47,839 nt of DNA. It comes from Elusimicrobia bacterium RIFOXYA2_FULL_39_19. Its GTDB lineage: Bacteria; Elusimicrobiota; Endomicrobiia; CG1-02-37-114; XYA2-FULL-39-19. The stretch lies in NCBI GenBank assembly GCA_001800285.1, contig MGVC01000038.1, positions 1 through 47,839 on the forward strand, written 5' to 3'. The notes under the pieces are model-generated. The model searched no databases and was not told the DNA's origin. It saw only the letters and a list, made by a program, of their open reading frames with translations. Below, piece by piece: positions 7,975 to 33,179 of the stretch. Every line of letters begins with the position of its first letter. The stretch's first letter is position 1. The translations under genes and the position numbers were made by a program.

Positions 7975-7975
<1 letters not shown>
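7382..7975 (-). CDS. MarC-family (UPF0056) integral membrane protein
   Basis: A 197-residue, six-segment membrane protein. The N-terminal FIPLFVAVDALGTVPLLLGF and the middle GGALLFILSIITL and PLATPLLIGPGVLSTLLIL segments are the usual MarC signatures. The family is found in the inner membrane and its function is unsettled; an old link with multiple antibiotic resistance has not held up. The ATG overlaps the stop of the GH1 gene (TAATG), so it is co-translated with a beta-glucosidase and followed by a GH127-like enzyme. A transport role connected with sugars is only a suggestion from position. Confidence 0.85.
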
Positions 7976-9360
<1,385 letters not shown>

Positions 9361-12817: not shown

Positions 12818-14137
12818 TTACTTTGCCCTCCCGGTTAAAGAGAAGTTGTACCTAATTACCTCTGCCCCCGAAGGCATTTTTATTGAAAAAACAAAATCTT
12901 CATTTCCACATTTTTTCGGGATATTTATAACTGCCGCAAAAGGTTTAAAGGGAGTGATGCGGTAGGTTCGTTTAAAAATTGTTTTTCCTGCAACAAAGAG
13001 TGCCAGCCTGCCGTCTTTCATGTCAAATGTTGTGTTAACGTAAAGTTCAATTTTTGACGTGCCTTTTCTTATAATGTTTACAGCAGCATTTTCATTTGCA
13101 AACCTGAAACCTTTCATTTTCTTTGGGGCATACCAGTACTGATTCCAGGAATCATGTGTAAACGGTTTTAAAAACCTGAATTCGCCTTGTGTCTCTATAG
13201 GGCCGCACTGCACTTCACAGTATTGGCCGGATTTATCTGTAAGCGTAGATGTCCTTAAATCAGCATCTTCAGTAACACCCCAGCTCCATATTTTTCTGCC
13301 GGGTACTTTCTTATGGTCAGCCACATGAATTATACCATGGTCAAGATTATGATGATAAAGCCCGAAAAAATCGTCTGAAAGCATGTAAGCAAACAGCGAG
13401 TAACGCATGTGAATATTTTTGTTCCAGCTTAAATCATTGCCTTTGTAAATCGGCCACGGGAAAACAACCAGGTCATTTACATCAATACTGCCGTGTTTAA
13501 AAGCATGTTTCATGGATTCCGGAAAAATGTACTGGGTTTGAGGAGTTAAAGGAATGGCAGTATTAGTCCAATAATAATATGGATGCGGGAATGGAGTATT
13601 GTTTAATATTTTATTTTCCAGCTTAAGATATGACTTATCCTTATAAAGAGTTATTTCTACTATCCATTTCATGCCGGTAATACGGTCGGTATCTCCGACA
13701 ATTATGCTTTTACTGCCGTCTTTATGAAAAACAGCATTGCAGGTTACCTTTGAAAGAGATGTAACATTATGGCTTCTTGGAAAATTATGTTCTATGCCGA
13801 ACGCACACCAGGCGCCGCGCACTGAAACAAGGGCCGGCTTCATACAATCATTTGTATAAAGCAGTTCTTTTTTAAGTGTTTTGTCGTACATAGAATACAC
13901 GTGCCCGCCAAGCTCCGGAAGCACTGTTACTTTAAGATACTTGTTTTCAAGCACAAGAGCTCTGTAGGTTTTGTCTTTAAGAACATGCCCAAGATTATCC
14001 TGAAGTGCATAAGGATAAATATAACCCGCCCCCACCGTTATATCTGTAAAATAGGGAGGATATGGATCATCAGAGCCCATTTCATAAGTTGGAATAACTA
14101 CTTTCTCGTCACTATACTCAACTGGTTTTTCTGTCAT
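12818..14137 (-). CDS. DUF5107-domain protein, glycosidase/mutarotase-like beta-sandwich
   Basis: A 439-residue cytoplasmic protein. The start VVIPTYEMGSDDPYPPYF and the segments ALVLENKYLKVTVLPELGGH and GAWCAFGIEHNFPRSHNV are the hallmarks of DUF5107, a supersandwich domain resembling aldose epimerases and the N-terminal domains of several glycosidases. Its biochemical activity is not established to my knowledge. The conserved EHNFP and PYYYWTNTA stretches could line a sugar pocket. Family members are usually about 1000 residues with a C-terminal TPR; here the TPR part is a separate adjacent gene. AAGGA site before the ATG. The TAG-free junction suggests fission by a single stop/start pair. 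Confidence 0.75.
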   Translation of the reverse strand: MTEKPVEYSDEKVVIPTYEMGSDDPYPPYFTDITVGAGYIYPYALQDNLGHVLKDKTYRALVLENKYLKVTVLPELGGHVYSMYDKTLKKELLYTNDCMKPALVSVRGAWCAFGIEHNFPRSHNVTSLSKVTCNAVFHKDGSKSIIVGDTDRITGMKWIVEITLYKDKSYLKLENKILNNTPFPHPYYYWTNTAIPLTPQTQYIFPESMKHAFKHGSIDVNDLVVFPWPIYKGNDLSWNKNIHMRYSLFAYMLSDDFFGLYHHNLDHGIIHVADHKKVPGRKIWSWGVTEDADLRTSTLTDKSGQYCEVQCGPIETQGEFRFLKPFTHDSWNQYWYAPKKMKGFRFANENAAVNIIRKGTSKIELYVNTTFDMKDGRLALFVAGKTIFKRTYRITPFKPFAAVINIPKKCGNEDFVFSIKMPSGAEVIRYNFSLTGRAK

Positions 14138-14150
14138 TTGTTTTTCCTTG

Positions 14151-16478
14151 TTATTTGATCAAATACAGACCTGTTTTGCCGTGTGATAGTGTAATTTTCA
14201 ATTTACTGCCTGCTATTTTTATTTTTTTATTTTTTACCATTTCAAGCGCATAGGAATATTTTTTATTTTCTGGAAGGCTGATTAATCTTTCTGCATTGCT
14301 TCGCGAACCATGTACCATAAGAATGCTTTCATTTGCCAGAAATACGTCATCTGTTTCGCTGTAAATATGAACTCCAGCCAATCTGGCAATTTCCCTTAAA
14401 ACAACCGCAGAAATACTATTGCTTCCTATATATATAGACCGCCATTTATTGAATTTCTTTGTTGCAGCTGCCGGTAAATTATTACTGGAATATACGCCTA
14501 TTAATTCGGCTTCCTTATCTACAGGAATAAATAGGGGCCCTATCCCAAATGCCGGGGAGAACAACATTGTGTTTTCAGTTGAATCGTACGTTTCTCCTGA
14601 ATCAAGATACCTTACTGCCCTGCCAAAAGTTGTGCCCACAGGTAGTTTTGAATTTAATTTATAATCAGATTTTCCGGAACTTACTTTTAAATGAAAAGAA
14701 CTACCATAATCAGCAAACTTTTCAACAAATTTCTGAGCTTCAGGAAGGACTGTTATATCAAAAACACCTTTGTCATCAACAAGCTCGTACTTTATACCTG
14801 TTAACTCTTGCATATTTTTGATATTGAATTGCCCGGCGGATTTGTCTGGGTTTACCACTCCGGCGCCATACATAAACAAAACAGTTCTGGAGGCGCTCTT
14901 AATTTTTTCAAGAGTTTTTCTATCATCATTAGAAAGAACCTGGCAATTTAAAACTATTACAAGTTTGTATTGTGACAGAGGAAAATCAGGTTTTTTCAAA
15001 TCATCATGCAGATAAATATCAACAGGCGCCCCGACACGAAATAATTCCTGCGTTAAAAACCTGTCCACAAAAGCATTAGAAAGGCGTGCATTATCGTTTT
15101 GATAATTCATAGATTCTTCATCCACAAGTACGGCAATTTGCGCAACACTTCGCCTGTTGGACTGCCAGCTCAATTCAAATATTTCCTGCATTTTTTCCAA
15201 ATACTTCAAATACGTAGGATGATTATACCAGCAATAGCTGAAATCGTACCACCAGCCATAACTGCCGGTGATTATATTATTTGCCAGGTCCCGGGTTAAT
15301 AATTCCAATGTTTCTTCTACACTGTTGGATCGAGTCCATCTGCGTAATTGCCGTCCCGGAGCACTAAAACGATCCTTTTTGTCTCTTCCATAAAAATAAA
15401 TATCTTTATTGTACGGCTTGTTGTTAAAGGTTCTAATGTCGTCTTCGGAAAAAAATAATTTGTTATGCAAATGCATTGAACCGGTTATAGTATGTTCTGG
15501 AGTAAACTGTCCTGCACCGCGTGCATCATAAATAGGAGGCCCTGCAGTAAAATCCACCAAAGGGCTTTCTATAACTTTTTTCCAATGATGGGTACCGGGC
15601 CCGCTGTGCGCCAGGGGTTCATGAAAAAAACCGACTATTGAATTTCCTTTACTTGCATTTTTTACCGTTTTCGCACAGGCAATCATCATGTCTGCAATTT
15701 CAAGTGCTTTACAGTTTAAAACATCTATTACTTTCTTATCTTTTATAGGATCCCGCCAAATACCGATTTTTCCTCTTTCTATTTCTTCAGTAGTCGGAAT
15801 CTTAACTTTTTCAAAATTAATCTTAGGGTCACCCCAGGCCTTTTGAAGGCCGGCAGTTGTTGAATATTTATTTTTTAAGAATTTTTTAAAAGCATTTTTC
15901 ATTGCAGGGGAGTAATCAAACCCAAGTTCTTCTTCAACCCAGAACCATTCTTCGCACTCGCCGGATTCAATAAAAAAACCTGCTATACGGTTTGCATAAG
16001 GCCTGCTTTGTGCAAATTTCACATATGCTTTTATGAATTCACAAACTTCTTTTTCGGCAATTTCTGAAGCATAAGAAAATATGGCTGAATCACTGTTGCA
16101 GTTTACTTTGGCTCCGGGAGGGTTCCCTTTTCTTTTGACAATGCCGTCTTTTGTCCACACACATTCTCCGGGATATTTCTTGGCCCAGGCTGGCGCAATT
16201 GTGGTATATACTGAAAGTATTATGTAATGATCCGGGCCAAAAGCAAGAATTCCTTTAAGCTTTTCGTCCAGCCTTTTAAAATGTTCTTCCCAACTTTCAA
16301 CACCATCCCATTTTTGGTCATAAAAAAATAACCTGTAGCCGCAATCATAAAGGGATTTCATATATTTCAGATTATAGTGATACTGACAGCGGTAGGTCAT
16401 AGGCGTTATTAATTTACCATTAACAAATAATGCCGGTAATCCGTTATGCTTTTTAATTTCTGATTTTGCTAGATCCAT
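14151..16478 (-). CDS. GH42-like (clan GH-A) glycosidase, copy A
   Basis: A 775-residue cytoplasmic protein with a TIM barrel (about 1-420), a Rossmann-like glutamine-amidotransferase-type middle domain (about 430-620; DIYLHDDLKKPDFPLSQYKL) and a C-terminal beta domain, the layout of GH42 beta-galactosidases. Comparison with its paralogue in this cluster leaves two shared carboxylates: Glu177 in GECEEWFW as the likely acid/base and Glu345 in LFFSEDDIR as the likely nucleophile. It is too divergent for me to give a substrate; beta-galactoside or another beta-glycoside is the family expectation. It is the last gene of the mirrored GH42-like/URO-D-like block. Confidence 0.65.
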   Translation of the reverse strand: MDLAKSEIKKHNGLPALFVNGKLITPMTYRCQYHYNLKYMKSLYDCGYRLFFYDQKWDGVESWEEHFKRLDEKLKGILAFGPDHYIILSVYTTIAPAWAKKYPGECVWTKDGIVKRKGNPPGAKVNCNSDSAIFSYASEIAEKEVCEFIKAYVKFAQSRPYANRIAGFFIESGECEEWFWVEEELGFDYSPAMKNAFKKFLKNKYSTTAGLQKAWGDPKINFEKVKIPTTEEIERGKIGIWRDPIKDKKVIDVLNCKALEIADMMIACAKTVKNASKGNSIVGFFHEPLAHSGPGTHHWKKVIESPLVDFTAGPPIYDARGAGQFTPEHTITGSMHLHNKLFFSEDDIRTFNNKPYNKDIYFYGRDKKDRFSAPGRQLRRWTRSNSVEETLELLTRDLANNIITGSYGWWYDFSYCWYNHPTYLKYLEKMQEIFELSWQSNRRSVAQIAVLVDEESMNYQNDNARLSNAFVDRFLTQELFRVGAPVDIYLHDDLKKPDFPLSQYKLVIVLNCQVLSNDDRKTLEKIKSASRTVLFMYGAGVVNPDKSAGQFNIKNMQELTGIKYELVDDKGVFDITVLPEAQKFVEKFADYGSSFHLKVSSGKSDYKLNSKLPVGTTFGRAVRYLDSGETYDSTENTMLFSPAFGIGPLFIPVDKEAELIGVYSSNNLPAAATKKFNKWRSIYIGSNSISAVVLREIARLAGVHIYSETDDVFLANESILMVHGSRSNAERLISLPENKKYSYALEMVKNKKIKIAGSKLKITLSHGKTGLYLIK

Positions 16479-16509
16479 AACTATTACATCTCCTTTATTA
16501 TCTGATCTT

Positions 16510-17586
16510 TTATTTTTTTACTGATAGTTTTTCTACCATTTTTATCAGCGCTTGCGCTTCCTGGTCTGTTTTGCCGGTAAACCCGCCGGAAATGAAAAGC
16601 CCTTCCGGTGAAAGCTCCTGCAATAATATTTTTATTTCGTTTTCATCTTTAGGATAAACTATGATGCTTCTTTTATGCTCCTGTATTTTTTTAAGCATTG
16701 GAAGCCAGTTTGAAGGAGAGGGTTTTCCCGCGCCCTGCTGCCACTGGATTGCCTTAATCTGGGGTATTTCAAGCAGCCTGTCAAGAAATTTTATTTCATC
16801 CGGGCCGTCAAGATGCCAGACAAGATAGTCATAGTATCTGCCCATTTGTTCAATTTCCGGAATAACCAGTTCTTCAAATAGCGGCGGCGATATCAATACG
16901 CTGAAATCACACTGTATGGCTTCGGTTTTGCCGGGCGCCCACATCAGCCAGGTATTATCTCCATGAAAATATTTGCTGTACAAACTATATTGTTCCTGGT
17001 GATATTTGTTTCTAAATTTTAATAACCGGTCTCTTGCTTTTATTATCGTCTCTTTATTGTCAATCACATCAAATACAAGCTCCTGGGAACCCCTTAAAAC
17101 CGAAAATATTGTAAAGATATCTCCGTAATCAGGAAATGACGGAATACAATTATTCTGTTTTGCTTTTTCTATGGTAATTTCAAATAACTTTTTGCTTCTT
17201 TTCCACCAGATATTTTCCGGGTCAAACTCAATTTTGAATTCATCCCAGTTGTCTATTTTATGTTTGTACCACGTAGTGCTTTCTCCAAACTCCATCTCAC
17301 CGCCAAGGTACCCGGCTATAGTCATCGGCGTGCCCCGGTTTCCAAAGAGATGGTGGAGCACAGGCAGGGCTTCGCCATAATGTTGTGTTGCTTTTGTCTG
17401 TTTTATGAAACAATCAACCATCTTTTCCATATCCGGCTCTTGCTCCGGTGAAATCCAGCAAGCATTGGCTACACTTCTTGGTTGTTCCTGTTTTATAATT
17501 CTAAAATCTATGCAGGCCCTGTCAATTATTTTGCCCTGCCACCAGGCAGAAATTCTTTCCAGTTGTTTGTCATATCCTTTTAACAT
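16510..17586 (-). CDS. URO-D-like protein A (uroporphyrinogen decarboxylase/methyltransferase superfamily)
   Basis: About 358 residues, cytoplasmic. The motif VWHLDGPDEI (His258, Asp260) followed by LLEIPQIKAIQWQQGAGKP is a pattern I associate with a subgroup of COG0407-type URO-D-like proteins found in sugar-degrading bacteria. The superfamily contains haem-pathway decarboxylases and zinc methyltransferases (MtaA, CmuA). The H-x-C...C zinc ligands of the methyltransferases are not present here: the position is H-x-D and no late Cys follows. Neither haem genes nor a corrinoid protein is nearby, so the activity is unknown. The ATG is chosen because a GGGGGA lies directly before it; a TTG one codon earlier is possible. 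Confidence 0.65.
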   Translation of the reverse strand: MLKGYDKQLERISAWWQGKIIDRACIDFRIIKQEQPRSVANACWISPEQEPDMEKMVDCFIKQTKATQHYGEALPVLHHLFGNRGTPMTIAGYLGGEMEFGESTTWYKHKIDNWDEFKIEFDPENIWWKRSKKLFEITIEKAKQNNCIPSFPDYGDIFTIFSVLRGSQELVFDVIDNKETIIKARDRLLKFRNKYHQEQYSLYSKYFHGDNTWLMWAPGKTEAIQCDFSVLISPPLFEELVIPEIEQMGRYYDYLVWHLDGPDEIKFLDRLLEIPQIKAIQWQQGAGKPSPSNWLPMLKKIQEHKRSIIVYPKDENEIKILLQELSPEGLFISGGFTGKTDQEAQALIKMVEKLSVKK

Positions 17587-17620
17587 CAATCCCCCGGTAA
17601 TACCAATATATTATGCTGTA

Positions 17621-18745
17621 TTATTTCCAGCCGGTTGCTTTTGCCAGCAAACCGCAATATTCCAAAAATTCTTTCCAGTTTACGTCATTGGGTATGCCGT
17701 GGTCACAACTGGGAATAAAACCGCCGTCTTTTATAACAGGAATCAGGTTTTGTATTTCATCCTGAATAATTTTCCCGCCTTTTGCCATGGCGCGTTTATC
17801 AACCCCGCCTGTGTAAGCCATTTTTTTGCCGAACATCTGCCGGAATTTATTCATATCACAGCCGGCGGCAATTTCCATAGGGTCGCATTCATTTATGCCG
17901 CATTCAATCCAGACCGGGATAAGTTCTGCAATATAGCCGTCAGAGTCAACACCATAAACCGGGCAGCCGCTTGCTTTAATAATTTCATTCCACTGGCTGT
18001 AGCAGGGGCTTAAGAATTCGCGGGTCATGGCAGGAGAAATCATAGCTTTTTGTTTGTAGGCCATATCTTCTGATATATGCACATAATCCAGTTTTACGTA
18101 AGGTACTACTTTTTCTAAAAGAGCTGAAACATAATCTTTCCAGAAAATTACCATGTCTTTGACAAAATCCGGGTCTTCAATAAACAGCATGCAAAGTTTT
18201 TCAAATCCCAGCCATTCCCGCAGCTGCCAGAAAGGCCCGGAAAACTCAAACCCTAATACATAATCCCTGTTTTGCGCTTTTTTGCCTTCTTCTTTAATAT
18301 TTTCAGGAATTCTGGAAGGTTCATTTGGATTATAACGGAGTTTCATGGCTTCCCAGTCTGCTCTGCTTTCTACCGGACACTTTAGCCAGCTTCTTGTAAC
18401 AAAATCTATGGGGTCTCTTAAATGAGCAATGGTAAAATCATTGGAAATTTCACAGATGTTGCCTTTCCAGTCCTGCACTATCTGGGAACGATCTTTCTTT
18501 TCAATAACTTTCTCTTCAAACTCAGGAATCATTCTTTCTTCAGCCCAAATGTCAGCTTTAGTAAATTTCGGCTGAGGTTCAATGCCCAGTTTTTCTCTTG
18601 CAAAATCTATATAGTTTTTATTTTCCGGTAATCCCTGGGTATTCCAGTTCTTTATTGTAGATTCTCTTGCATTACCGGGCTTAAAAGGCACTTTATCAGG
18701 CTTTCCAAAAAGCATTGTTTCTAAATAACGTTCCCGTTCGTTCAT
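17621..18745 (-). CDS. URO-D-like protein B
   Basis: About 374 residues, cytoplasmic. The start MNERERYLETMLFGKPDKVP and the end TGGVDKRAMAKG then FIPSCDHGIPNDVNW are standard for the uroporphyrinogen-decarboxylase superfamily. Where zinc methyltransferases have H-x-C this protein has VDSDG (Asp267, Asp269); it keeps a late Cys347 beside His349. True UroD enzymes are shorter and sit with haem genes, so a haem role is unlikely. It shares its family with the next gene and lies between two GH42-like genes, suggesting a modified-sugar role (demethylation or decarboxylation) that is not demonstrated. The ATG has GGAGGAAT before it; a GTG ten codons earlier overlaps the previous gene. Confidence 0.7.
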   Translation of the reverse strand: MNERERYLETMLFGKPDKVPFKPGNARESTIKNWNTQGLPENKNYIDFAREKLGIEPQPKFTKADIWAEERMIPEFEEKVIEKKDRSQIVQDWKGNICEISNDFTIAHLRDPIDFVTRSWLKCPVESRADWEAMKLRYNPNEPSRIPENIKEEGKKAQNRDYVLGFEFSGPFWQLREWLGFEKLCMLFIEDPDFVKDMVIFWKDYVSALLEKVVPYVKLDYVHISEDMAYKQKAMISPAMTREFLSPCYSQWNEIIKASGCPVYGVDSDGYIAELIPVWIECGINECDPMEIAAGCDMNKFRQMFGKKMAYTGGVDKRAMAKGGKIIQDEIQNLIPVIKDGGFIPSCDHGIPNDVNWKEFLEYCGLLAKATGWK

Positions 18746-18756
18746 ATTCCTCCGCG

Positions 18757-21027
18757 TTAACCTAAATGGTAACACTTTGTTTCAAATTTATTTATTTTGA
18801 TTTTAAATTCTTTGGTTTTGCCGATAGCCTTATTACTGAAAGCATCAGCCACTTTTGTTTTTGACGGTAATTTTATAGTTCTTGTACCTGCACTGTCATA
18901 AGACCTGACTGCCGCCATACGGCTGTTTGCAAAAACCAATTCACCGCTATCAACATATGTATGCACGCCGGAAGCGCGCAAAATAGCATTTAACAATTCC
19001 CACTGCACATAGTTAGAACCTATATATACGCTGGTCCAGTTTTTCATTTCTTTAATAGCCGCACCAATAAACGTTGGGCTTGGTTTATTAAATTGCGTAG
19101 GAATTAATAATTCCTGAGAATTCATTAGGTTATAATTATTTTCTCCCGGTAGAGGCATCATTTCGGCAACATAATAAGCAAGAGGAATTGCATTCTGGTC
19201 ATCTACCGTCAGTACAGGATTAATACATATAAAAGGATACAAGTCATATTTACCCATGTTTTTGCTTCTGGGCTTATTCCCTTTTCGCAATTCGTTAGTA
19301 ATACCAAAAAATCTGCCGGCGCCATAAAGTTCACATATTTTATGTTCACCCGGCAATGACATCATTACAGGGGTGAACTGGCCGCACCGCTCAAGAAAAT
19401 TTATACCTGTAAGCATTTTCATGTTTTCGGTACTATAAATTGAACCTTGTGCTTTAGGCAGCCCAAAACCTGAAGCCCAATAGAAAACCAATGTTCTGTT
19501 TTTGCTTTTTAGTTTTTCTACAGCTTCCCTTTCTTTTTCATTTAATACTATACAATCAATAAAGAATGCTGTTTTAATTCTTTCCAGTGGAAAATCAGGG
19601 TGAAGGACATCTTCTAGATTATATACTTCATACGGTGCACCCATTCTGGGGAATGTATAATACATTCCCATAGAAATAGCCAAGGTAGTGTTTCGGGGCC
19701 AGTTGGGCATATAATATTCTGATTGTTCGCTAACAAATACTGCTGTTTGAGCAACGGACGATGGTTTTTGGGCCCGGTGATACTTATCAATGGCCTGGAG
19801 TTTTTTTAATCTCGGCCAATAAACCTTGCTTTTAAACCACTGTTTCTGGAAATCCCACCACCAGGCATAAATACCTTCAACAATATTTTTGCAGGAAACA
19901 TGAGTGATTACTTTTACATATTCTTCAGCTGTATTAATTTTTGAACGAGGATTTTTTGATTCCTTCGCCATTGGCGGGGTATCTTCTTCCTGAAACCAGA
20001 CTTTATTATTCAGGTGAATTGAGGCAACCAGTGAATGGCTTAATTTTGAGGTCTGTAAATCATGGTTTGCTTCCGTAGATGACGGGCCGGAAATAAAATC
20101 TACATAAGGAGATTCTATTACTTTTTTAAATGGGTCGGTAAAATGTTCACAGTCCAGCAAATGTTCACAGAAAAATCCTGTTAAAAGGTCCGGCCTGCGT
20201 TGTTTTGCCGCTGTTGGGCCTGTCAATATCATGGCTAAGTGTTCTTCTGCGGCAAATTCATACCAGTCTACCGAAGCACGGCCGTTTGGCGTACCGGTAT
20301 CCTGCAGCCAGCCGCGCTGAGGGTTAGTAATTGCTTCTTCCGGCATTAAAGCTTTTTCTATAGTTAAACCGGGCTTGCCGTAGCTTTTTGAAAACACTTC
20401 ATCGGTTTTATAACGTTTTGTCAGCCACTCGTGATATTTTTTCAGCATTCCCGGGGAATATCTTTCTGAATTGAAGTTATACCATTCCTGCGCTCTGCCG
20501 CCTTCAAAAAACATACCTATTACCCGGTCCGGGTCCGGCAGTGATTCAATAATATCTATATGAAAGTTTGCCTGCTTTTTTTGTTCCTCTTTGATTCTGT
20601 CGCTATAAAGCGAAAAATATGCAGTTTCCCTTACTTCAGCTGCTTCTATATGATAATTTAAATCCGGCCCTTCAGGATTGTCCCATGGAGCATCTTCTGG
20701 ATGTTCTTTTATATGTTTGTCAGAAATTGAAAGATAGTATCCTAAAATTATGTATATATCCGGCGCCATGGAAAACATAGTACAAATGCGTTTTCTAACT
20801 TCATCAGCATAGGTTTGCCAGGACATAGAACCATCCGGAGGCATAATGCGTGTCATAAAAAACAGCTTATGGCCTGCATCCACAAATTTTTTCATATATT
20901 TGAAATCTTCGTGGGCGCGGTTGCGGTATAAAATGGTAGGTAATTCTACGCCGTCAACAAAAATACGCGGCACTCCATTAACTTTTCTGATTTCCGGTTT
21001 AAAGTGTTTTCTTTGATATTTTGACAT
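18757..21027 (-). CDS. GH42-like (clan GH-A) glycosidase, copy B
   Basis: A 756-residue cytoplasmic paralogue of copy A, with the same order of parts: NGVPRIFVDGVELPT at the start, a TIM barrel, a middle domain (EVYNLEDVLHPDFPLERIKT) and an end strand region. The paired carboxylates are Glu181 in RAQEWYNF and Glu347 in VWFQEEDTP. Sequence drift from copy A is large, so the duplication is old and the two probably have different substrates. Good AAGGA site. It lies between the M28-like and the URO-D-like genes. Confidence 0.65.
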   Translation of the reverse strand: MSKYQRKHFKPEIRKVNGVPRIFVDGVELPTILYRNRAHEDFKYMKKFVDAGHKLFFMTRIMPPDGSMSWQTYADEVRKRICTMFSMAPDIYIILGYYLSISDKHIKEHPEDAPWDNPEGPDLNYHIEAAEVRETAYFSLYSDRIKEEQKKQANFHIDIIESLPDPDRVIGMFFEGGRAQEWYNFNSERYSPGMLKKYHEWLTKRYKTDEVFSKSYGKPGLTIEKALMPEEAITNPQRGWLQDTGTPNGRASVDWYEFAAEEHLAMILTGPTAAKQRRPDLLTGFFCEHLLDCEHFTDPFKKVIESPYVDFISGPSSTEANHDLQTSKLSHSLVASIHLNNKVWFQEEDTPPMAKESKNPRSKINTAEEYVKVITHVSCKNIVEGIYAWWWDFQKQWFKSKVYWPRLKKLQAIDKYHRAQKPSSVAQTAVFVSEQSEYYMPNWPRNTTLAISMGMYYTFPRMGAPYEVYNLEDVLHPDFPLERIKTAFFIDCIVLNEKEREAVEKLKSKNRTLVFYWASGFGLPKAQGSIYSTENMKMLTGINFLERCGQFTPVMMSLPGEHKICELYGAGRFFGITNELRKGNKPRSKNMGKYDLYPFICINPVLTVDDQNAIPLAYYVAEMMPLPGENNYNLMNSQELLIPTQFNKPSPTFIGAAIKEMKNWTSVYIGSNYVQWELLNAILRASGVHTYVDSGELVFANSRMAAVRSYDSAGTRTIKLPSKTKVADAFSNKAIGKTKEFKIKINKFETKCYHLG

Positions 21028-21038
21028 TTATTGTCCTT

Positions 21039-22607
21039 TTATTTTATTTCTAATGCTATATAACCTGATTTAGTCAAAAAATTAAATATTTCGACAAGTT
21101 TTTCGTACTTAATGTTACTTTTCATTTCGTTTTCTACAAGCTGATGTATTTCTTTCAATGTTCTTTTCCCGTTACTATAAAACAAAGCCAGATTCAGCCA
21201 TTCAGGGCTTATCCACCACGGCGAAAACCCAAAAATATTTTGATAGTCTTTAAATTGTTTATCATTTAAATTATCAAAACCTATATAACCCTTAAATTTT
21301 TTTAATGGAAACATTTCTTTTGCGTTAGCCGCAGTATAAATATAAGTTCCTATAACACCTGCAATTTCTTGTGCTGTTTTCTGCGAAATTGTGCTCATCG
21401 TATCCAGTGTGGTGTGCCAGCTGTAAGCTGAACCTCTTACAAGTGCAAGCATAGGACAGTTAACCAGCGGGTCATCTGCAGGATTATCATTAATACAGTA
21501 AGGTATTATTTCATAAGGTTTTTTAAGAGTTTTAAGCACTTTAATAAATAACTCTTCTGCAAAGCGCGGACCTGACCCGGGTGTTGCACACAAGGGGAAA
21601 ATGTACTTTCCCTTTTCTCCTATGGAATCCAGTGTAATTGCAGATACTGTATTTTTAATTCTATCCGGATACTTATAAATGTACGCCTGCATTCCCCTGG
21701 TTTCAAAAGACAACAGAAACCTTATGGTTTTATCCGGCACAGGCAGTTTTTTTTCTTTTATTAACTTGTTTAAACTGTTAAAAACCTCCAGTAGTATGGC
21801 GCTGGAGAGGGCATTATCATTGGCGCCCTGTTCAAAGGAATGAGCATCAACAAGAATTTCCCTGTTTGTTTTACCTTTAATTACCGCCGTCGGCATGTGA
21901 ATTTTGCCTGTTTCTATTTTTGTATTTATTATTGCGTGAACAAATACTTTTTCGCGCCTGCTAAGAATGTTTCTTATTTTTTCACCCTGGGACGGTGTTA
22001 TGGCAAAACCCCATATTTTTTTATTATAGAAAGGATTTATCGTAAAATTGTGCCAGTTTACGGCGTTTTTATTTTTTTGTGCCTCATTCCCTCCCGTTGC
22101 CTTGCTGATTTTATCCGTAACAAAACCTACGGCACCTTCTTTTTCCAATTGTATAACATCAACATCAGTGCCTATAAATGAACCAAATACAACTTTTCCT
22201 TTTTTGTTTTCTTCTTCAATGCTGACAAGTTCACCCGTAAATCCTTCCGGGCTTGTTGGGGCTGAATATAATATCAGGTTATTGGGAACTTTTTTGTAAT
22301 CAGCAATAGTTTCTTTGGATGGTGAGGTGACTTGGAGCGTTCCGCTGATTGCTGTCCAGTTTTTAGGCAGGCAGATACCGCCGAATGAGGTTTTTCCGTC
22401 AGCAGGAAAAGAAAGCAATTCCGGGTTAGCCAGCCCCTTCTCTTGGAGCTCCCTTTTACACCACGCGTGTACTTTTTCATATTTATCAGATGAAGAGTAA
22501 CGGCATCCTTCCCAGAAAGTACGGGTATATGCCATTATGGCTTTGCCTGAAATCCTTTTTGAAAGAAGTTTATGTAAACGTTGGATATTTGTACCATTAT
22601 TTTTCAT
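21039..22607 (-). CDS. M28-family zinc peptidase-like protein with PA-type insert
   Basis: A 522-residue protein without a signal peptide. A PA-like insert lies near residues 95-235, the M28 fold follows, and a winged-helix-like end (GKRTLKEIHQLVENE) closes it. Metal ligands can be placed: His256 and Asp264 (DAHSFEQGANDN), Asp327 (TLDSIG) and His398 (YSWHTT). The catalytic Glu302 is kept in SFETRG, but the second Glu of the usual EE pair is Thr303. It may hydrolyse amide bonds of amino sugars or peptides; a cytoplasmic peptidase in a glycan operon is odd. The ATG used lacks a good ribosome binding site; see the 4-codon stub upstream. Confidence 0.7.
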   Translation of the reverse strand: MKNNGTNIQRLHKLLSKRISGKAIMAYTRTFWEGCRYSSSDKYEKVHAWCKRELQEKGLANPELLSFPADGKTSFGGICLPKNWTAISGTLQVTSPSKETIADYKKVPNNLILYSAPTSPEGFTGELVSIEEENKKGKVVFGSFIGTDVDVIQLEKEGAVGFVTDKISKATGGNEAQKNKNAVNWHNFTINPFYNKKIWGFAITPSQGEKIRNILSRREKVFVHAIINTKIETGKIHMPTAVIKGKTNREILVDAHSFEQGANDNALSSAILLEVFNSLNKLIKEKKLPVPDKTIRFLLSFETRGMQAYIYKYPDRIKNTVSAITLDSIGEKGKYIFPLCATPGSGPRFAEELFIKVLKTLKKPYEIIPYCINDNPADDPLVNCPMLALVRGSAYSWHTTLDTMSTISQKTAQEIAGVIGTYIYTAANAKEMFPLKKFKGYIGFDNLNDKQFKDYQNIFGFSPWWISPEWLNLALFYSNGKRTLKEIHQLVENEMKSNIKYEKLVEIFNFLTKSGYIALEIK

Positions 22608-22854: not shown

Positions 22855-23709
22855 TTATTTGAGATTCAGTTCACGGATCAGGGAATCAATCTTTGTATTT
22901 ATTCTTTCTCTGTCTTTCAGAACCGATTGTTTGCTTTCATAACAGAAAGTGCAATCCGGCATATCGCAAAGCAGTACTGCAGGATTATCTTTCAAGGCAT
23001 TTAATACAACCTGCATTATATCCCTGATTTTTATCATCAGGACTGTTGCTTCGCCGATTTTTATTTCTTTTATTTTTCCTGAATTCATAAGAATTCTGTT
23101 AATTTTTGACTCCGGTACGTAAAAATCCCTGTGGCCGCCGGGTTCATTTGGGAAAGTAACTTTTTTAACATTGTTTTTCAGATCTACCAGAGCTGCTATG
23201 CCCTTACGTGATGCTATATATGAAAGCCCCAGCCAGTCTTCGGCAACATGGTTTGTGGTATTAGGGTTTAACCCGCAGCCTAAAAACAAAACTGTAGCAT
23301 CCAAATCTATAAATTTCTTAAACGCACTTTTTCTTCCGCACGGACTGTCTGTAGGCTTATGATCCTTTAAAACATAATCAGCTTTCGGACCCAGTGCACA
23401 GACTGCGTGGGTAGGGTGAATCCCTCTTTTTACGCCTTTTTTAAACCTGAAATACTCGGTAATTACGCCGACTTTTGAAGTGCTTCTAAGCGGGTGAAAC
23501 GGAGGGTTTACGCCTATAAGTGATACTGTATTTGTAGGCATGCAGACCGTTCCGGTTTTGCCTGCAGCTTCAAGAAGCGCATTGATAACCGTATCTGCGC
23601 CGCCGGCTACTTTGCCGAAACTTTTCAAAGAGGAATGCACAAGGAGCACATCCCCCTTTTTAACACCCAATGACTTTAAACCGGCTGTTATTAATTGTTT
23701 ATTGAGCAT
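22855..23709 (-). CDS. AAC(3)-family N-acetyltransferase
   Basis: A 284-residue cytoplasmic protein of normal family length. Motifs in order: LLVHSSLKSFGKVAGGADTV, HPTHAVCALGP, SPCGRKSAF and FLGCGLNPNTTNHVAE, with His154 and Glu157 as the candidate catalytic pair. AAC(3) enzymes move an acetyl group from acetyl-CoA to an amine, classically the 3-amino group of aminoglycosides. Here the gene is wedged between an M28-like gene and a GH2-like gene, so an amino-sugar substrate from the glycan is more likely than drug resistance. It lies two bases after the GH2 stop. There is a Cys-rich end (LLCDMPDCTFC). Confidence 0.8.
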   Translation of the reverse strand: MLNKQLITAGLKSLGVKKGDVLLVHSSLKSFGKVAGGADTVINALLEAAGKTGTVCMPTNTVSLIGVNPPFHPLRSTSKVGVITEYFRFKKGVKRGIHPTHAVCALGPKADYVLKDHKPTDSPCGRKSAFKKFIDLDATVLFLGCGLNPNTTNHVAEDWLGLSYIASRKGIAALVDLKNNVKKVTFPNEPGGHRDFYVPESKINRILMNSGKIKEIKIGEATVLMIKIRDIMQVVLNALKDNPAVLLCDMPDCTFCYESKQSVLKDRERINTKIDSLIRELNLK

Positions 23710-30128: not shown

Positions 30129-30965
30129 CTAGCCTTTCATACCGGACATAACTATGCCCTTTACGAAGAAACGCTGATTAAATATGTATAGAAGTATTAC
30201 TGGAAGTAAAATTATCATCGAACCTGCCATCAATAACGGCCAGTCTGTTGTATACTGTCCGGTAAAATACGCCAAGCCTACAGGCAGGGTCATTTTTTCT
30301 GGTGAATTTAGTACGATTAACGGCCACATAAAGTCATTCCAGGCACCCAGAAAAGTAAATGTGCCAAGAGTTGCCAGTGCTGGTTTTGATAAGGGAAGAA
30401 TTATACGCCAATAAATACCTACGTGCGAACAGCCGTCAATGGTCGCTGCTTCTTCCAATTCTTTCGGTATGGCAAGAAAGAACTGTCTGAAGAAGAAAGC
30501 CCCCCCAGCATGGAATATACCCGGAATAATCAAAGCTTTATATGTATCAATCCATCCAATATTTTTAAGTAAAATAAATACTGGTATCATAGTGACTTGT
30601 CCTGGAATCATCATCGTACCAAGATATGTTAAAAACAACTTGTCCCTGCCTGGGAACTCAAGTCTTGCAAAGGCATATCCGGCCATCGATCCTGTAAGCA
30701 ATGATCCAAAGGTTAAACAAGCTGAAATAAAAATGCTATTAAGGAAAAATCTGCCAAAAGGAGCCGCCTGCCATGCATGTGCGTAGTTTTCAAACACTAT
30801 TGGATTTGGAATCCATTTTGGCGGGAAAATAAAAACATTTGCCGGTTCTTTAAGTGATGTTGATAACATCCATATAAATGGCGCTATCATTGTCAAACCG
30901 AGCAAAATCATGAAAGTATACATGACTGTTTTTTTTAGGATACCGGCAATTTTTTTACTATGCAT
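30129..30965 (-). CDS. Carbohydrate ABC transporter permease (MalG/UgpE type)
   Basis: A 278-residue inner-membrane protein with six hydrophobic segments. The EAA loop, which docks with the ATPase, is clear near residue 175 (EELEEAATIDGCSHVGIYWR). It ends with the GIVMSGMKG tail common to MalG-type subunits. It pairs with the adjacent MalF-type permease and the lipoprotein to import an oligosaccharide. No ATPase is encoded within the window, so an MsmK/MalK-like subunit must come from elsewhere. Confidence 0.92.
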   Translation of the reverse strand: MHSKKIAGILKKTVMYTFMILLGLTMIAPFIWMLSTSLKEPANVFIFPPKWIPNPIVFENYAHAWQAAPFGRFFLNSIFISACLTFGSLLTGSMAGYAFARLEFPGRDKLFLTYLGTMMIPGQVTMIPVFILLKNIGWIDTYKALIIPGIFHAGGAFFFRQFFLAIPKELEEAATIDGCSHVGIYWRIILPLSKPALATLGTFTFLGAWNDFMWPLIVLNSPEKMTLPVGLAYFTGQYTTDWPLLMAGSMIILLPVILLYIFNQRFFVKGIVMSGMKG

Positions 30966-30990
30966 ACATTCCTTTAAATAAATTCATTTA

Positions 30991-31875
30991 CTAATAATAA
31001 TAATTTTTACCACCAGCATATTTCCACTGAATCATTGTAACTGTAAAAACAATAAAAAACAGAAACCATGAAATTGCCGATGCATAACCCATTTTAAACT
31101 GCTGAAATGCGTTTAAATATATTGAATACACTACCGTTGTAGTAGAACCCATAGGGCCACCCCCGGTCATAACATATGGTTCACTGAATACCTGAAAAGT
31201 ACCCATTACACCGGTAATTATAAGATAAAAATTAGCAAAAGAAAGCATAGGTAATGTTATGTGCCAGAATTTTTGCCATGGAGATGCACCATCAATGTTT
31301 GCAGATTCATATAATTCTTCAGGTATTCCCTGTAATGCAGCAAGATAAATTAGCATCTGGTAGCCTACACCCTTCCATAAACCGAATATAATTAATGCTG
31401 GTTTTGCCCAGGTTGTATCACGAAGCCAGTTTGGAGGGGTATGAACACCTATATACTTAAGGAAAGCATTTAAAATCCCGTAATCACCATTATATATCCA
31501 TTTCCATATTAATGCACAGGCAACACCGGAAGATATCACCGGAAAGAAATATATGGTCCTGAATATTCCAACTGCTTTTATTTTTTGATTTACAAGGATT
31601 GCCAAAAACAATGCTGCTGCTAAATCTATTGGAATAGCCAGAACAAAATAAAAAGTGTTGTAAACATAGTACCAAAAATCCTGGTCATTAATCATTTTTA
31701 TGAAATTGTCAAAACCAACAAATTTTGCCGGTGTAATAATATCCCATTCCATGAATGCCAGTACAAAAGATGCTACTACAGGAAATAAAGTAAAAACAAA
31801 GAACCCTAAAATCGGAGGCCCTAAAAAACTGTACCCTATAAATATTTTATTAAGTACTTTCTTGTTTATCTTCAT
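30991..31875 (-). CDS. Carbohydrate ABC transporter permease (MalF/UgpA type)
   Basis: A 294-residue inner-membrane protein with six hydrophobic segments. The EAA loop lies near residue 195 (ELYESANIDGASPWQKFWHI). The GGPMGSTTTVVYSIYLNAF region is typical for sugar permeases. The ATG lies inside the stop of the binding-protein gene (4-base overlap), and the second permease follows after 25 bases, the standard order for this importer class. Confidence 0.92.
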   Translation of the reverse strand: MKINKKVLNKIFIGYSFLGPPILGFFVFTLFPVVASFVLAFMEWDIITPAKFVGFDNFIKMINDQDFWYYVYNTFYFVLAIPIDLAAALFLAILVNQKIKAVGIFRTIYFFPVISSGVACALIWKWIYNGDYGILNAFLKYIGVHTPPNWLRDTTWAKPALIIFGLWKGVGYQMLIYLAALQGIPEELYESANIDGASPWQKFWHITLPMLSFANFYLIITGVMGTFQVFSEPYVMTGGGPMGSTTTVVYSIYLNAFQQFKMGYASAISWFLFFIVFTVTMIQWKYAGGKNYYY

Positions 31876-33179
31876 TTTTGAGTTTTCTTTTCTCCAATAA
31901 GCTTATTTAGCTGATCCTGCACCATCTTTGTATATGTAGCTATATCATACTTTTTTAAAAGCACGCCGTCAATATTCTTTGCCCAAACTATCTGGTCTAC
32001 TTCTGACCAGCTTATGTCCGGGTGCAGGTATTCTTTAAACGGATATGCGTAGGCCATTGTTTTTATATAAGCTGTATTGTCTTCATTTGGAAAATTGGGA
32101 TCTTTTTTTAGAAATTCCATTTCTGCTAGTTTCTTTATTGGAGGCACACAGTCTCCCTGAGCCATCATGTATTTTACTACTTCTTCGCTGCAGAAATATT
32201 TTATGAATTCATAGGACTGCTGAGGAAACTTGCACTGGCTTGAAATAACCCAGGCATGAGTTGAAATTGGTGATATTCTTATTTTTCCTTTTGGTAATTC
32301 ACAAACCCCAAAGTTAACCTTTGCTTTTCTAAAACTTACGGTATACCATCTTCCCCCTACAAACATACCTGCTCTTCCACCTTCAAATATTTCATAACTA
32401 CCCTGATCCGACGAATCTTTTAAATCAGGAATTACATGATATTTCAAAATCATATCTATAAGGAACTGAAGGCCCGCTCTGCTTTCCGGGGTATCATATA
32501 CACATTTTGATTTATCTTTGTTCCAAAGGCTTCCACCCCATGCTTTCACAAAATAGAGTACATCATTATCGTATAATGCGGCACCAAACTGTTTTACAAT
32601 ACCTCTTTCATCTTTAATAGTCATCTTTTTTGCTACTTCTAAAAATTCATTCCAAGTCCAATTACCTGAAGGATATTTTATTTTTGCTTTATCAAAAAGG
32701 TCTTTATTGTAATATACAACCGAAGGGCTCATGCTGTCTGTAAATGAATATATCTTTCCGCCCCAGGTAAATTCTTCAAGTATAGCAGGGTAGTACATAT
32801 TAACATCTAGTGATTTGTCTTTTTCAATAAAAGAATCTAATGGAACTATAGCATTTCTTTTAATAAATGAAGGGAGGTTCTGGGCCTCTAGAGAAAACAC
32901 ATCAGGCGCTGTATTTGAAGCAAACATTGTCAATAATTTCTGACCATAAGCCTGACCGCTTACAGGTTCAAACCTAATTTTAATATTTGGATTTTTGCTT
33001 TCAAAATTTCTGCATACTTCTTCAACAAGTTTATTGTAGTTTAAATCCGCTCCGCCGATTACAAATCTTAGCGTGACTACTTCATTTTCAGTTTTTAGAG
33101 CATTTTTATTGCCACATGAAACAAACAGAACACCTGCCACCAATACCGACAATATCACTATTATTGCTCTTTTAAACAT
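31872..33179 (-). CDS. Sugar ABC transporter substrate-binding lipoprotein (SBP_bac_1 type)
   Basis: A 435-residue exported lipoprotein: N-terminal signal MFKRAIIVILSVLVAGVLFV, then the lipobox ending at Cys22 (LFVSC-G). The mature part has the class-1 binding-protein pattern (VEEVCRNFESKNPNIKIRFE; AGMFVGGRWY). It captures an oligosaccharide in the periplasm and passes it to the two permeases. GGAGG lies seven bases before the ATG. The 137-base gap upstream is a natural place for a promoter, but I see no convincing -10/-35 pair. Substrate unknown. Confidence 0.93.
   Translation of the reverse strand: MFKRAIIVILSVLVAGVLFVSCGNKNALKTENEVVTLRFVIGGADLNYNKLVEEVCRNFESKNPNIKIRFEPVSGQAYGQKLLTMFASNTAPDVFSLEAQNLPSFIKRNAIVPLDSFIEKDKSLDVNMYYPAILEEFTWGGKIYSFTDSMSPSVVYYNKDLFDKAKIKYPSGNWTWNEFLEVAKKMTIKDERGIVKQFGAALYDNDVLYFVKAWGGSLWNKDKSKCVYDTPESRAGLQFLIDMILKYHVIPDLKDSSDQGSYEIFEGGRAGMFVGGRWYTVSFRKAKVNFGVCELPKGKIRISPISTHAWVISSQCKFPQQSYEFIKYFCSEEVVKYMMAQGDCVPPIKKLAEMEFLKKDPNFPNEDNTAYIKTMAYAYPFKEYLHPDISWSEVDQIVWAKNIDGVLLKKYDIATYTKMVQDQLNKLIGEKKTQK

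Follow-up and report, generated by a model that had tools for sequence, protein, structure and literature searches.

Members of the URO-D superfamily that move methyl groups with the help of small corrinoid proteins are the closest described systems to the genes analyzed here. The methylcobalamin:coenzyme M methyltransferases MtaA and MtbA (structure 4ay7) are TIM barrels of this superfamily that carry an HxCG motif and transfer methyl groups with a small corrinoid protein. A further set, represented by VdmB, OdmB, MtvB and CdmB, also falls in the UroD superfamily, acts with a corrinoid protein and an ATP-dependent activator, and occurs as several paralogues per genome; in the accessible portions of these reports the substrates are methoxyaromatics or chloromethane, and a linkage to glycosidases is not described (PMC10418091, PMC13222342). 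S methyltransferases of the superfamily are reported to have His-Cys-Cys zinc ligands and O methyltransferases to have carboxylates in place of Cys or lack the ligand (PMC10418091), replacement of Cys by a carboxylate is seen in the O-type enzymes among the UroD O-demethylase MTI proteins (PMC10418091, PMC13222342), and zinc is not required by some members (PMC13222342). Finally, in the clostridial type 1 mlp clusters a single corrinoid protein and an activator are encoded together with several UroD-like proteins; the His-Cys-Cys site there suggests S or Se chemistry, and the clusters are not sugar linked (PMC10418091).

The locus described below lies in a draft Elusimicrobiota genome (3.09 Mb, 86 contigs, 98% complete), on a contig of 47,839 nucleotides that we call the window. 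Its central block consists of two URO-D-superfamily genes, UA and UB, between two glycosidase-like genes, GHx1 and GHx2. Glycans of plants, algae and microbes commonly contain methylated sugars and, to our knowledge, the described route for removing sugar methyl groups needs oxygen (P450). Within the literature searched, for which journal coverage was incomplete, we found no description of sugars being demethylated by corrinoid enzymes and none tying URO-D genes to glycosidases or to polysaccharide demethylation.

Organization of the locus

The four co-directional genes are complete open reading frames, tightly spaced on the minus strand as the original prediction had described them (Table 1). 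The UB reading frame as listed covers 17621-18775 (384 aa) and opens with a GTG that overlaps GHx2. However, the true start is very probably the ATG at 18745, because a GGAGG precedes it and homologues begin at the equivalent Met; with this start the overlap with GHx2 would vanish, leaving an ordinary tight operon. The operon goes on with DUF5107 and TPR genes at one end and with an M28-like gene at the other, and a second DUF5107 homologue (L039, 5816-7171, 27% identical) follows another UB-type URO-D gene on contig C28 of the same genome. A promoter scan of the region gave results at chance level only, and a terminator scan gave results about one standard deviation above chance.

Table 1. 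Features of the locus and of its proposed partner gene (window positions unless a contig is named).
Feature	Position	Strand	Length	Description
DUF5107 protein	12818..14137	-		Same gene run; Pfam DUF5107, E 3e-58
GHx1	14151..16478	-	775 aa	GH42-like putative glycosidase of clan GH-A type (Pfam)
UA	16510..17589	-	359 aa	URO-D superfamily, HxDG motif; putative corrinoid-dependent methyltransferase
UA H259-L-D261-G262	16804..16815	-		Columns matching the HxCG-type motif of related URO-D-like proteins
UB	17621..18745	-		Start corrected; URO-D family, DxDG motif; putative corrinoid-dependent methyltransferase
UB D277-S-D279-G280 (DxDG)	17936..17947	-		Same columns as HxCG of the paralogues
UB Shine-Dalgarno-like GGAGG	18749..18753	-		Read directly in the sequence
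GHx2	18757..21027	-	756 aa	GH42-like putative glycosidase, paralogue of GHx1
Peptidase M28-like	21039..22607	-		Directly upstream, same gene run; Pfam, E 8e-11
ABC sugar importer	30129..33179	-		Two permeases and a solute-binding protein; BPD_transp_1 twice, SBP_bac_1 (Pfam)
Small corrinoid protein	G000:C28:12949-13587			Stand-alone, MtaC type; directly before a HACG-type URO-D gene

The surroundings form a large glycan cluster (1382-43712) that contains GH36-like, GH127, two GH1, GH2, GH31/36-like and GH116-like genes besides the GH42-like pair, together with Gfo/Idh/MocA and Zn dehydrogenase genes and the ABC importer. An Antibiotic_NAT (AAC(3)-like) gene at 22855-23709, in the midst of these sugar genes, scores far under the curated resistance-model cut-offs and probably codes for a sugar or metabolite acyltransferase.

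Two GH42-like putative glycosidases

The bracketing genes had been called GH42-like, a description that stands by Pfam for GHx1, where the GH42 match narrowly exceeds the cut-off (25.0 bits against 21) and a GH42M match is weak and under its cut-off. GHx2 has no Pfam match and takes the name only through its relationship to GHx1: the two proteins are 28% identical across their full length (E 6e-90), which identifies them as true but old paralogues. All 12 aligned homologues keep residues E181 and E347 of GHx2, a pattern that a retaining glycosidase would show, and these are putative catalytic residues. These features liken the pair to glycoside hydrolase family 42, from which it differs in that GHx2 falls under detection and that no characterized relative was found; a PDB sequence search with GHx1 gave no match.

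Family, predicted fold and motifs of UA and UB

The assignment of both middle genes to the URO-D superfamily is upheld by two different kinds of evidence. UB matches Pfam URO-D in part (E 7e-7, profile positions 131-332 of 346), whereas UA matches no Pfam URO-D model and shows no similarity to UB by BLAST. The placement of UA rests on profile-profile comparison and predicted fold, since its profile found nothing convincing among PDB sequences and single-protein PDB sequence searches returned nothing useful. Specifically, the UA and UB family profiles align with an hhalign probability of 98%. The AlphaFold model of UA (pLDDT 95.7) has MtaA (4ay7, E 7e-10) as its best PDB fold match, followed by UROD and MetE, and that of UB (pLDDT 90.0) matches UROD (2inf, 4e-10) and MtaA (4ay7/4ay8, 1e-9) about equally. 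The UB-family profile finds MtaA first among PDB sequences, with UROD also found, and both models have the URO-D/MtaA/MetE TIM-barrel fold. The likeness to MtaA and MtbA would extend to methyl transfer with a small corrinoid protein. The differences are the HxDG or DxDG found here in place of HxCG, an identity of only about 12%, and coenzyme M, which is not expected in this setting. UA is also too distant from VdmB, OdmB, MtvB and CdmB for detection by BLAST or Pfam.

Residues H259, D261 and G262 of UA are invariant across 65 aligned homologues, and the HxDG that they form aligns with DxDG of UB in the profile alignment. Paralogues in the same genome show HSCG or HACG in these DxDG columns, and the Cys that serves MtaA as third metal ligand has no obvious counterpart in UA. 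The occurrence of HxDG and DxDG for HxCG fits the rule of Cys-to-carboxylate replacement published for UroD O-methyltransferases (PMC10418091), and both motifs are compatible, as judged from sequence, with an O-type site.

The nearest relatives of UA (44-47% identity) come from other phyla, namely Zipacnadia, Verrucomicrobiia, Omnitrophota and one unclassified bacterial record, and several paralogues share about 30% identity with UB. Scanning genome_contigs with the UA sequence alone returned nothing; an alignment query was needed, and it yielded 421 confirmed UA-like stretches. A separate UB-type URO-D gene of the host (L043, 10211-11290; C20, 43211-44290), full length and with a VDTDG motif, contains two in-frame TGA codons. 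Selenocysteine or recoding was considered for it, but the aligned homologues, inspected by eye, have neither Cys nor Trp at these positions, and it is more probably a decayed gene or an assembly error.

Corrinoid machinery in the host and across phyla

The URO-D-like genes had been described as having no methyltransferase partner. This is correct for the window, which holds neither a corrinoid protein nor RACo, but does not extend to the genome, where a stand-alone corrinoid protein and a second copy of RACo, the reductive activator of corrinoid proteins, are encoded elsewhere. The corrinoid protein on C28 carries DxHxxG...SxL...GG and is encoded in trans to UA and UB. One of the two RACo genes is inside the CODH/ACS operon (C44), so the second, which is outside it on C84, is without that job.

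When a fixed sample of 150 Elusimicrobiota genomes was surveyed, URO-D-like genes were present in eight and RACo in 20, with RACo in seven of the eight genomes that have URO-D-like genes. A second RACo occurs in the host (G000) and in G003, G067, G069, G075 and G077, and these same six genomes hold both URO-D-like genes and a stand-alone corrinoid protein; in G062 the apparent pair is two pieces of one gene. The other RACo-bearing genomes have a single RACo, and in nearly all other genomes of the sample the corrinoid domain is within a long MetH-like frame. Fisher tests gave 2e-6 and, for URO-D-like genes against a second RACo, about 2e-9, values that ignore relatedness among six genomes drawn from roughly two clades. 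The URO-D-like match of G001 is weak and this genome has no stand-alone corrinoid protein, and the URO-D-like match of G107 is marginal. A stand-alone corrinoid protein is also present in G121 (C16, 13613-14239), where neither URO-D-like genes nor a RACo match were detected.

Across phyla, RACo was present in 49 of the 50 UA-bearing genomes tested. Background frequencies cover two phyla, Elusimicrobiota and Chloroflexota; in the latter RACo occurs in 88 of 251 genomes and in all six that carry UA, one of which is the centre of the sample. This genome-level association is a correlation among related clades. At the level of loci, an Anaerolineae contig (L127, 8011-12868) carries a UB homologue, a corrinoid protein, a UA homologue and RACo consecutively, 12-17 bp apart. 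A row of genes in Neomarinimicrobiota (L084, 1909-9119) contains UA, an epimerase, GH2, MtaB (E 6e-160) and a corrinoid protein, that is, a methanol-type methyltransferase inside a sugar operon. Within Elusimicrobiota, the corrinoid protein gene of G067 stands in a row with a true GH42 gene (E 7e-42) and a URO-D gene of the HCCG type, and in G075 a UB-type DCDG gene adjoins a corrinoid protein and a sugar-isomerase-like gene. Such cases directly link the gene families, corrinoid machinery and sugar genes, and they are a minority: a corrinoid protein lies within 10 kb of UA at two of 80 loci and RACo at two of 80, so direct linkage is rare. In an archaeal record, a Thaumarchaeota-labelled MAG (L128, 2046-5122), RACo is divergently adjacent to a UA homologue. 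Overall the comparison gives the corrinoid link good support, and we consider it likely that UA and UB are corrinoid-dependent methyltransferases.

Sugar genes around the URO-D-like genes

Seven of the 11 URO-D-superfamily genes in the host genome are beside a glycosidase, esterase or sulfatase gene. These are UA and UB (GHx), one gene on C12 (GH42-like), two on C69 (AXE1; GH94), one on C8 (GH2) and a second UA on C20 (sulfatase). A GH78 gene is present on the same contig as two URO-D-like genes. From other genomes we collected 102 genes close to UA and on its strand, in nearly every case no more than two genes away, and the commonest among the families listed are URO-D (6), sulfatase (5), GH4 and ABC permeases (4 each), GH2, an ABC-independent sugar-binding kinase domain and FtsX (3 each), and GH38 and GH42M (2 each). 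For a distant control we took 102 genes of the same contigs that lie at least six positions off, and among the families listed for it none of glycosidases or sulfatases appeared two or more times. Since the control consists of shorter proteins on either strand and each listing covers 25 families, the comparison indicates an enrichment and not an exact ratio. The direct neighbours of UA's closest relatives (L059, L061 and L062) are not sugar genes where checked.

The original prediction had suggested an undescribed sugar step in which methyl or carboxyl groups are removed. Its methyl branch fares well, given the URO-D genes beside glycosidases, the enrichment around UA and the corrinoid machinery in the genome; its carboxyl branch received no support. 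The neighbourhood suggests a methylated sugar as the substrate of UA and UB, an identification that we put forward tentatively and with some reserve.

Alternative readings of the block

The mirror symmetry had been attributed to an old duplication of a glycosidase and URO-D-like pair. GHx1 and GHx2 are indeed paralogues, but theirs is the only paralogy in the block that BLAST detects; UA and UB fall into separate subfamilies, and a tandem event would be expected to leave the order GH-U-GH-U. Recurrence of the neighbourhood, which had been proposed as a check, was sought at 80 UA loci and 16 Verrucomicrobiota GHx loci, and the exact GHx–UA–UB–GHx block was found at none of them. No UA locus has a GHx relative, and although such relatives are present in 80 of 289 Verrucomicrobiota genomes, none of the 16 GHx loci has a URO-D-like neighbour. 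A duplication of the pair is thus highly improbable, and by sequence the symmetry is an assembly of four genes. Even less credible is a role for UA or UB in haem synthesis as a porphyrinogen decarboxylase. The Pfam match of UB, which might suggest it, is partial, and the nine URO-D matches in the genome reach only 86.6 bits at best, this best one being partial as well. RQAGR, which we take to be the N-terminal signature of true URO-D, is absent from both proteins, and we rejected an identity with uroporphyrinogen decarboxylase (HemE) on the lack of a full-length match and of this signature.

Two other readings carry more weight. UA and UB could work without a corrinoid protein, through direct decarboxylation, elimination or isomerization of a sugar or sugar acid at a carboxylate-bound metal, with RACo reflecting a shared anaerobic lifestyle. 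Such a role would agree with the absence of an adjacent corrinoid protein at most UA genes, with a fold that also resembles the decarboxylase URO-D and with the different ligand set of DxDG. It is nevertheless improbable in view of the near-universal presence of RACo in the UA genomes tested, the joint occurrence within Elusimicrobiota of URO-D-like genes with a second RACo and a stand-alone corrinoid protein, and the L127 operon. Alternatively, the corrinoid chemistry may be as we propose and the methyl donor may be an aromatic aglycone that bears a methoxyl group and is released by the glycosidases, as from a methoxyphenyl glucoside. This is a serious rival for the substrate, given the two GH1 genes in the window and the activity on aromatic methyl ethers of the UroD-superfamily O-demethylases named in the papers cited here. 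We still regard it as unlikely, if slightly less so than the non-corrinoid role, as the sulfatase, AXE1, GH94, GH2 and GH42-like neighbours of the URO-D-like genes, with a GH78 gene sharing a contig with two of the latter, suit polysaccharides, and no aromatic-degradation genes were found among the Pfam-scanned proteins of the window.

A proposed route for sugar demethylation

We therefore lean, by a modest degree, towards UA and UB being corrinoid methyltransferases of a cytoplasmic sugar-catabolic operon that demethylate sugar-derived substrates by way of the corrinoid protein encoded in trans. The ABC sugar importer would be a possible entry route, and the imported glycan would be opened by GHx1, GHx2 and the other glycosidases of the cluster to give an O-methylated (or methoxy-bearing) substrate. 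UA, UB or both would pass the methyl group to Co(I) of the C28 corrinoid protein, which the dedicated second RACo on C84 would keep reduced by repairing oxidized cobalt. The methyl group would presumably end in the Wood-Ljungdahl branch, to which the CODH/ACS operon on C44 belongs. One corrinoid protein and one activator may be common to several substrate-specific URO-D-like methyltransferases, each placed next to the genes that supply its substrate. Sharing of this kind would account for the lack of an adjacent corrinoid protein at most UA and UB genes. UA and UB may be two substrate-specific enzymes for two methyl groups, or else partners of which one works on the donor side and the other on the acceptor side; either division of labour is compatible with the L127 operon.

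If this route operates, the cell would demethylate the sugars, or sugar-linked compounds, on which it feeds and need no oxygen to do so, and in anaerobes the methyl groups of glycans would supply one-carbon units and acetyl-CoA. A broader proposal, which we offer as a possibility and with a little more caution than the substrate itself, is that many uncultured anaerobes demethylate O-methylated sugars with a large set of substrate-specific UroD-like methyltransferases (the HxDG type, which Pfam URO-D does not match, plus the DxDG type), each lying next to the glycan enzymes that provide its substrate and all sharing one trans-encoded corrinoid protein and RACo. This would constitute an anaerobic counterpart to the oxygen-dependent P450 demethylation of methylated sugars. 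It would also account for the many 'uroporphyrinogen decarboxylase family' genes in glycan operons, giving a function to a large and mostly misannotated group.

Two other URO-D-like loci of the host have unusual sugar genes nearby. Downstream of the second UA on C20, two reading frames (L044, 10553-13012 and 13014-14897) look like fusions, one of a solute-binding protein with an ABC permease and the other of a GH42-like stretch with an ABC permease. On C8, near another URO-D-like gene, a 161-aa piece (L042, 13246-13731) is 80% identical to a GH1 of the window (7975-9336) and is a truncated second copy of it.
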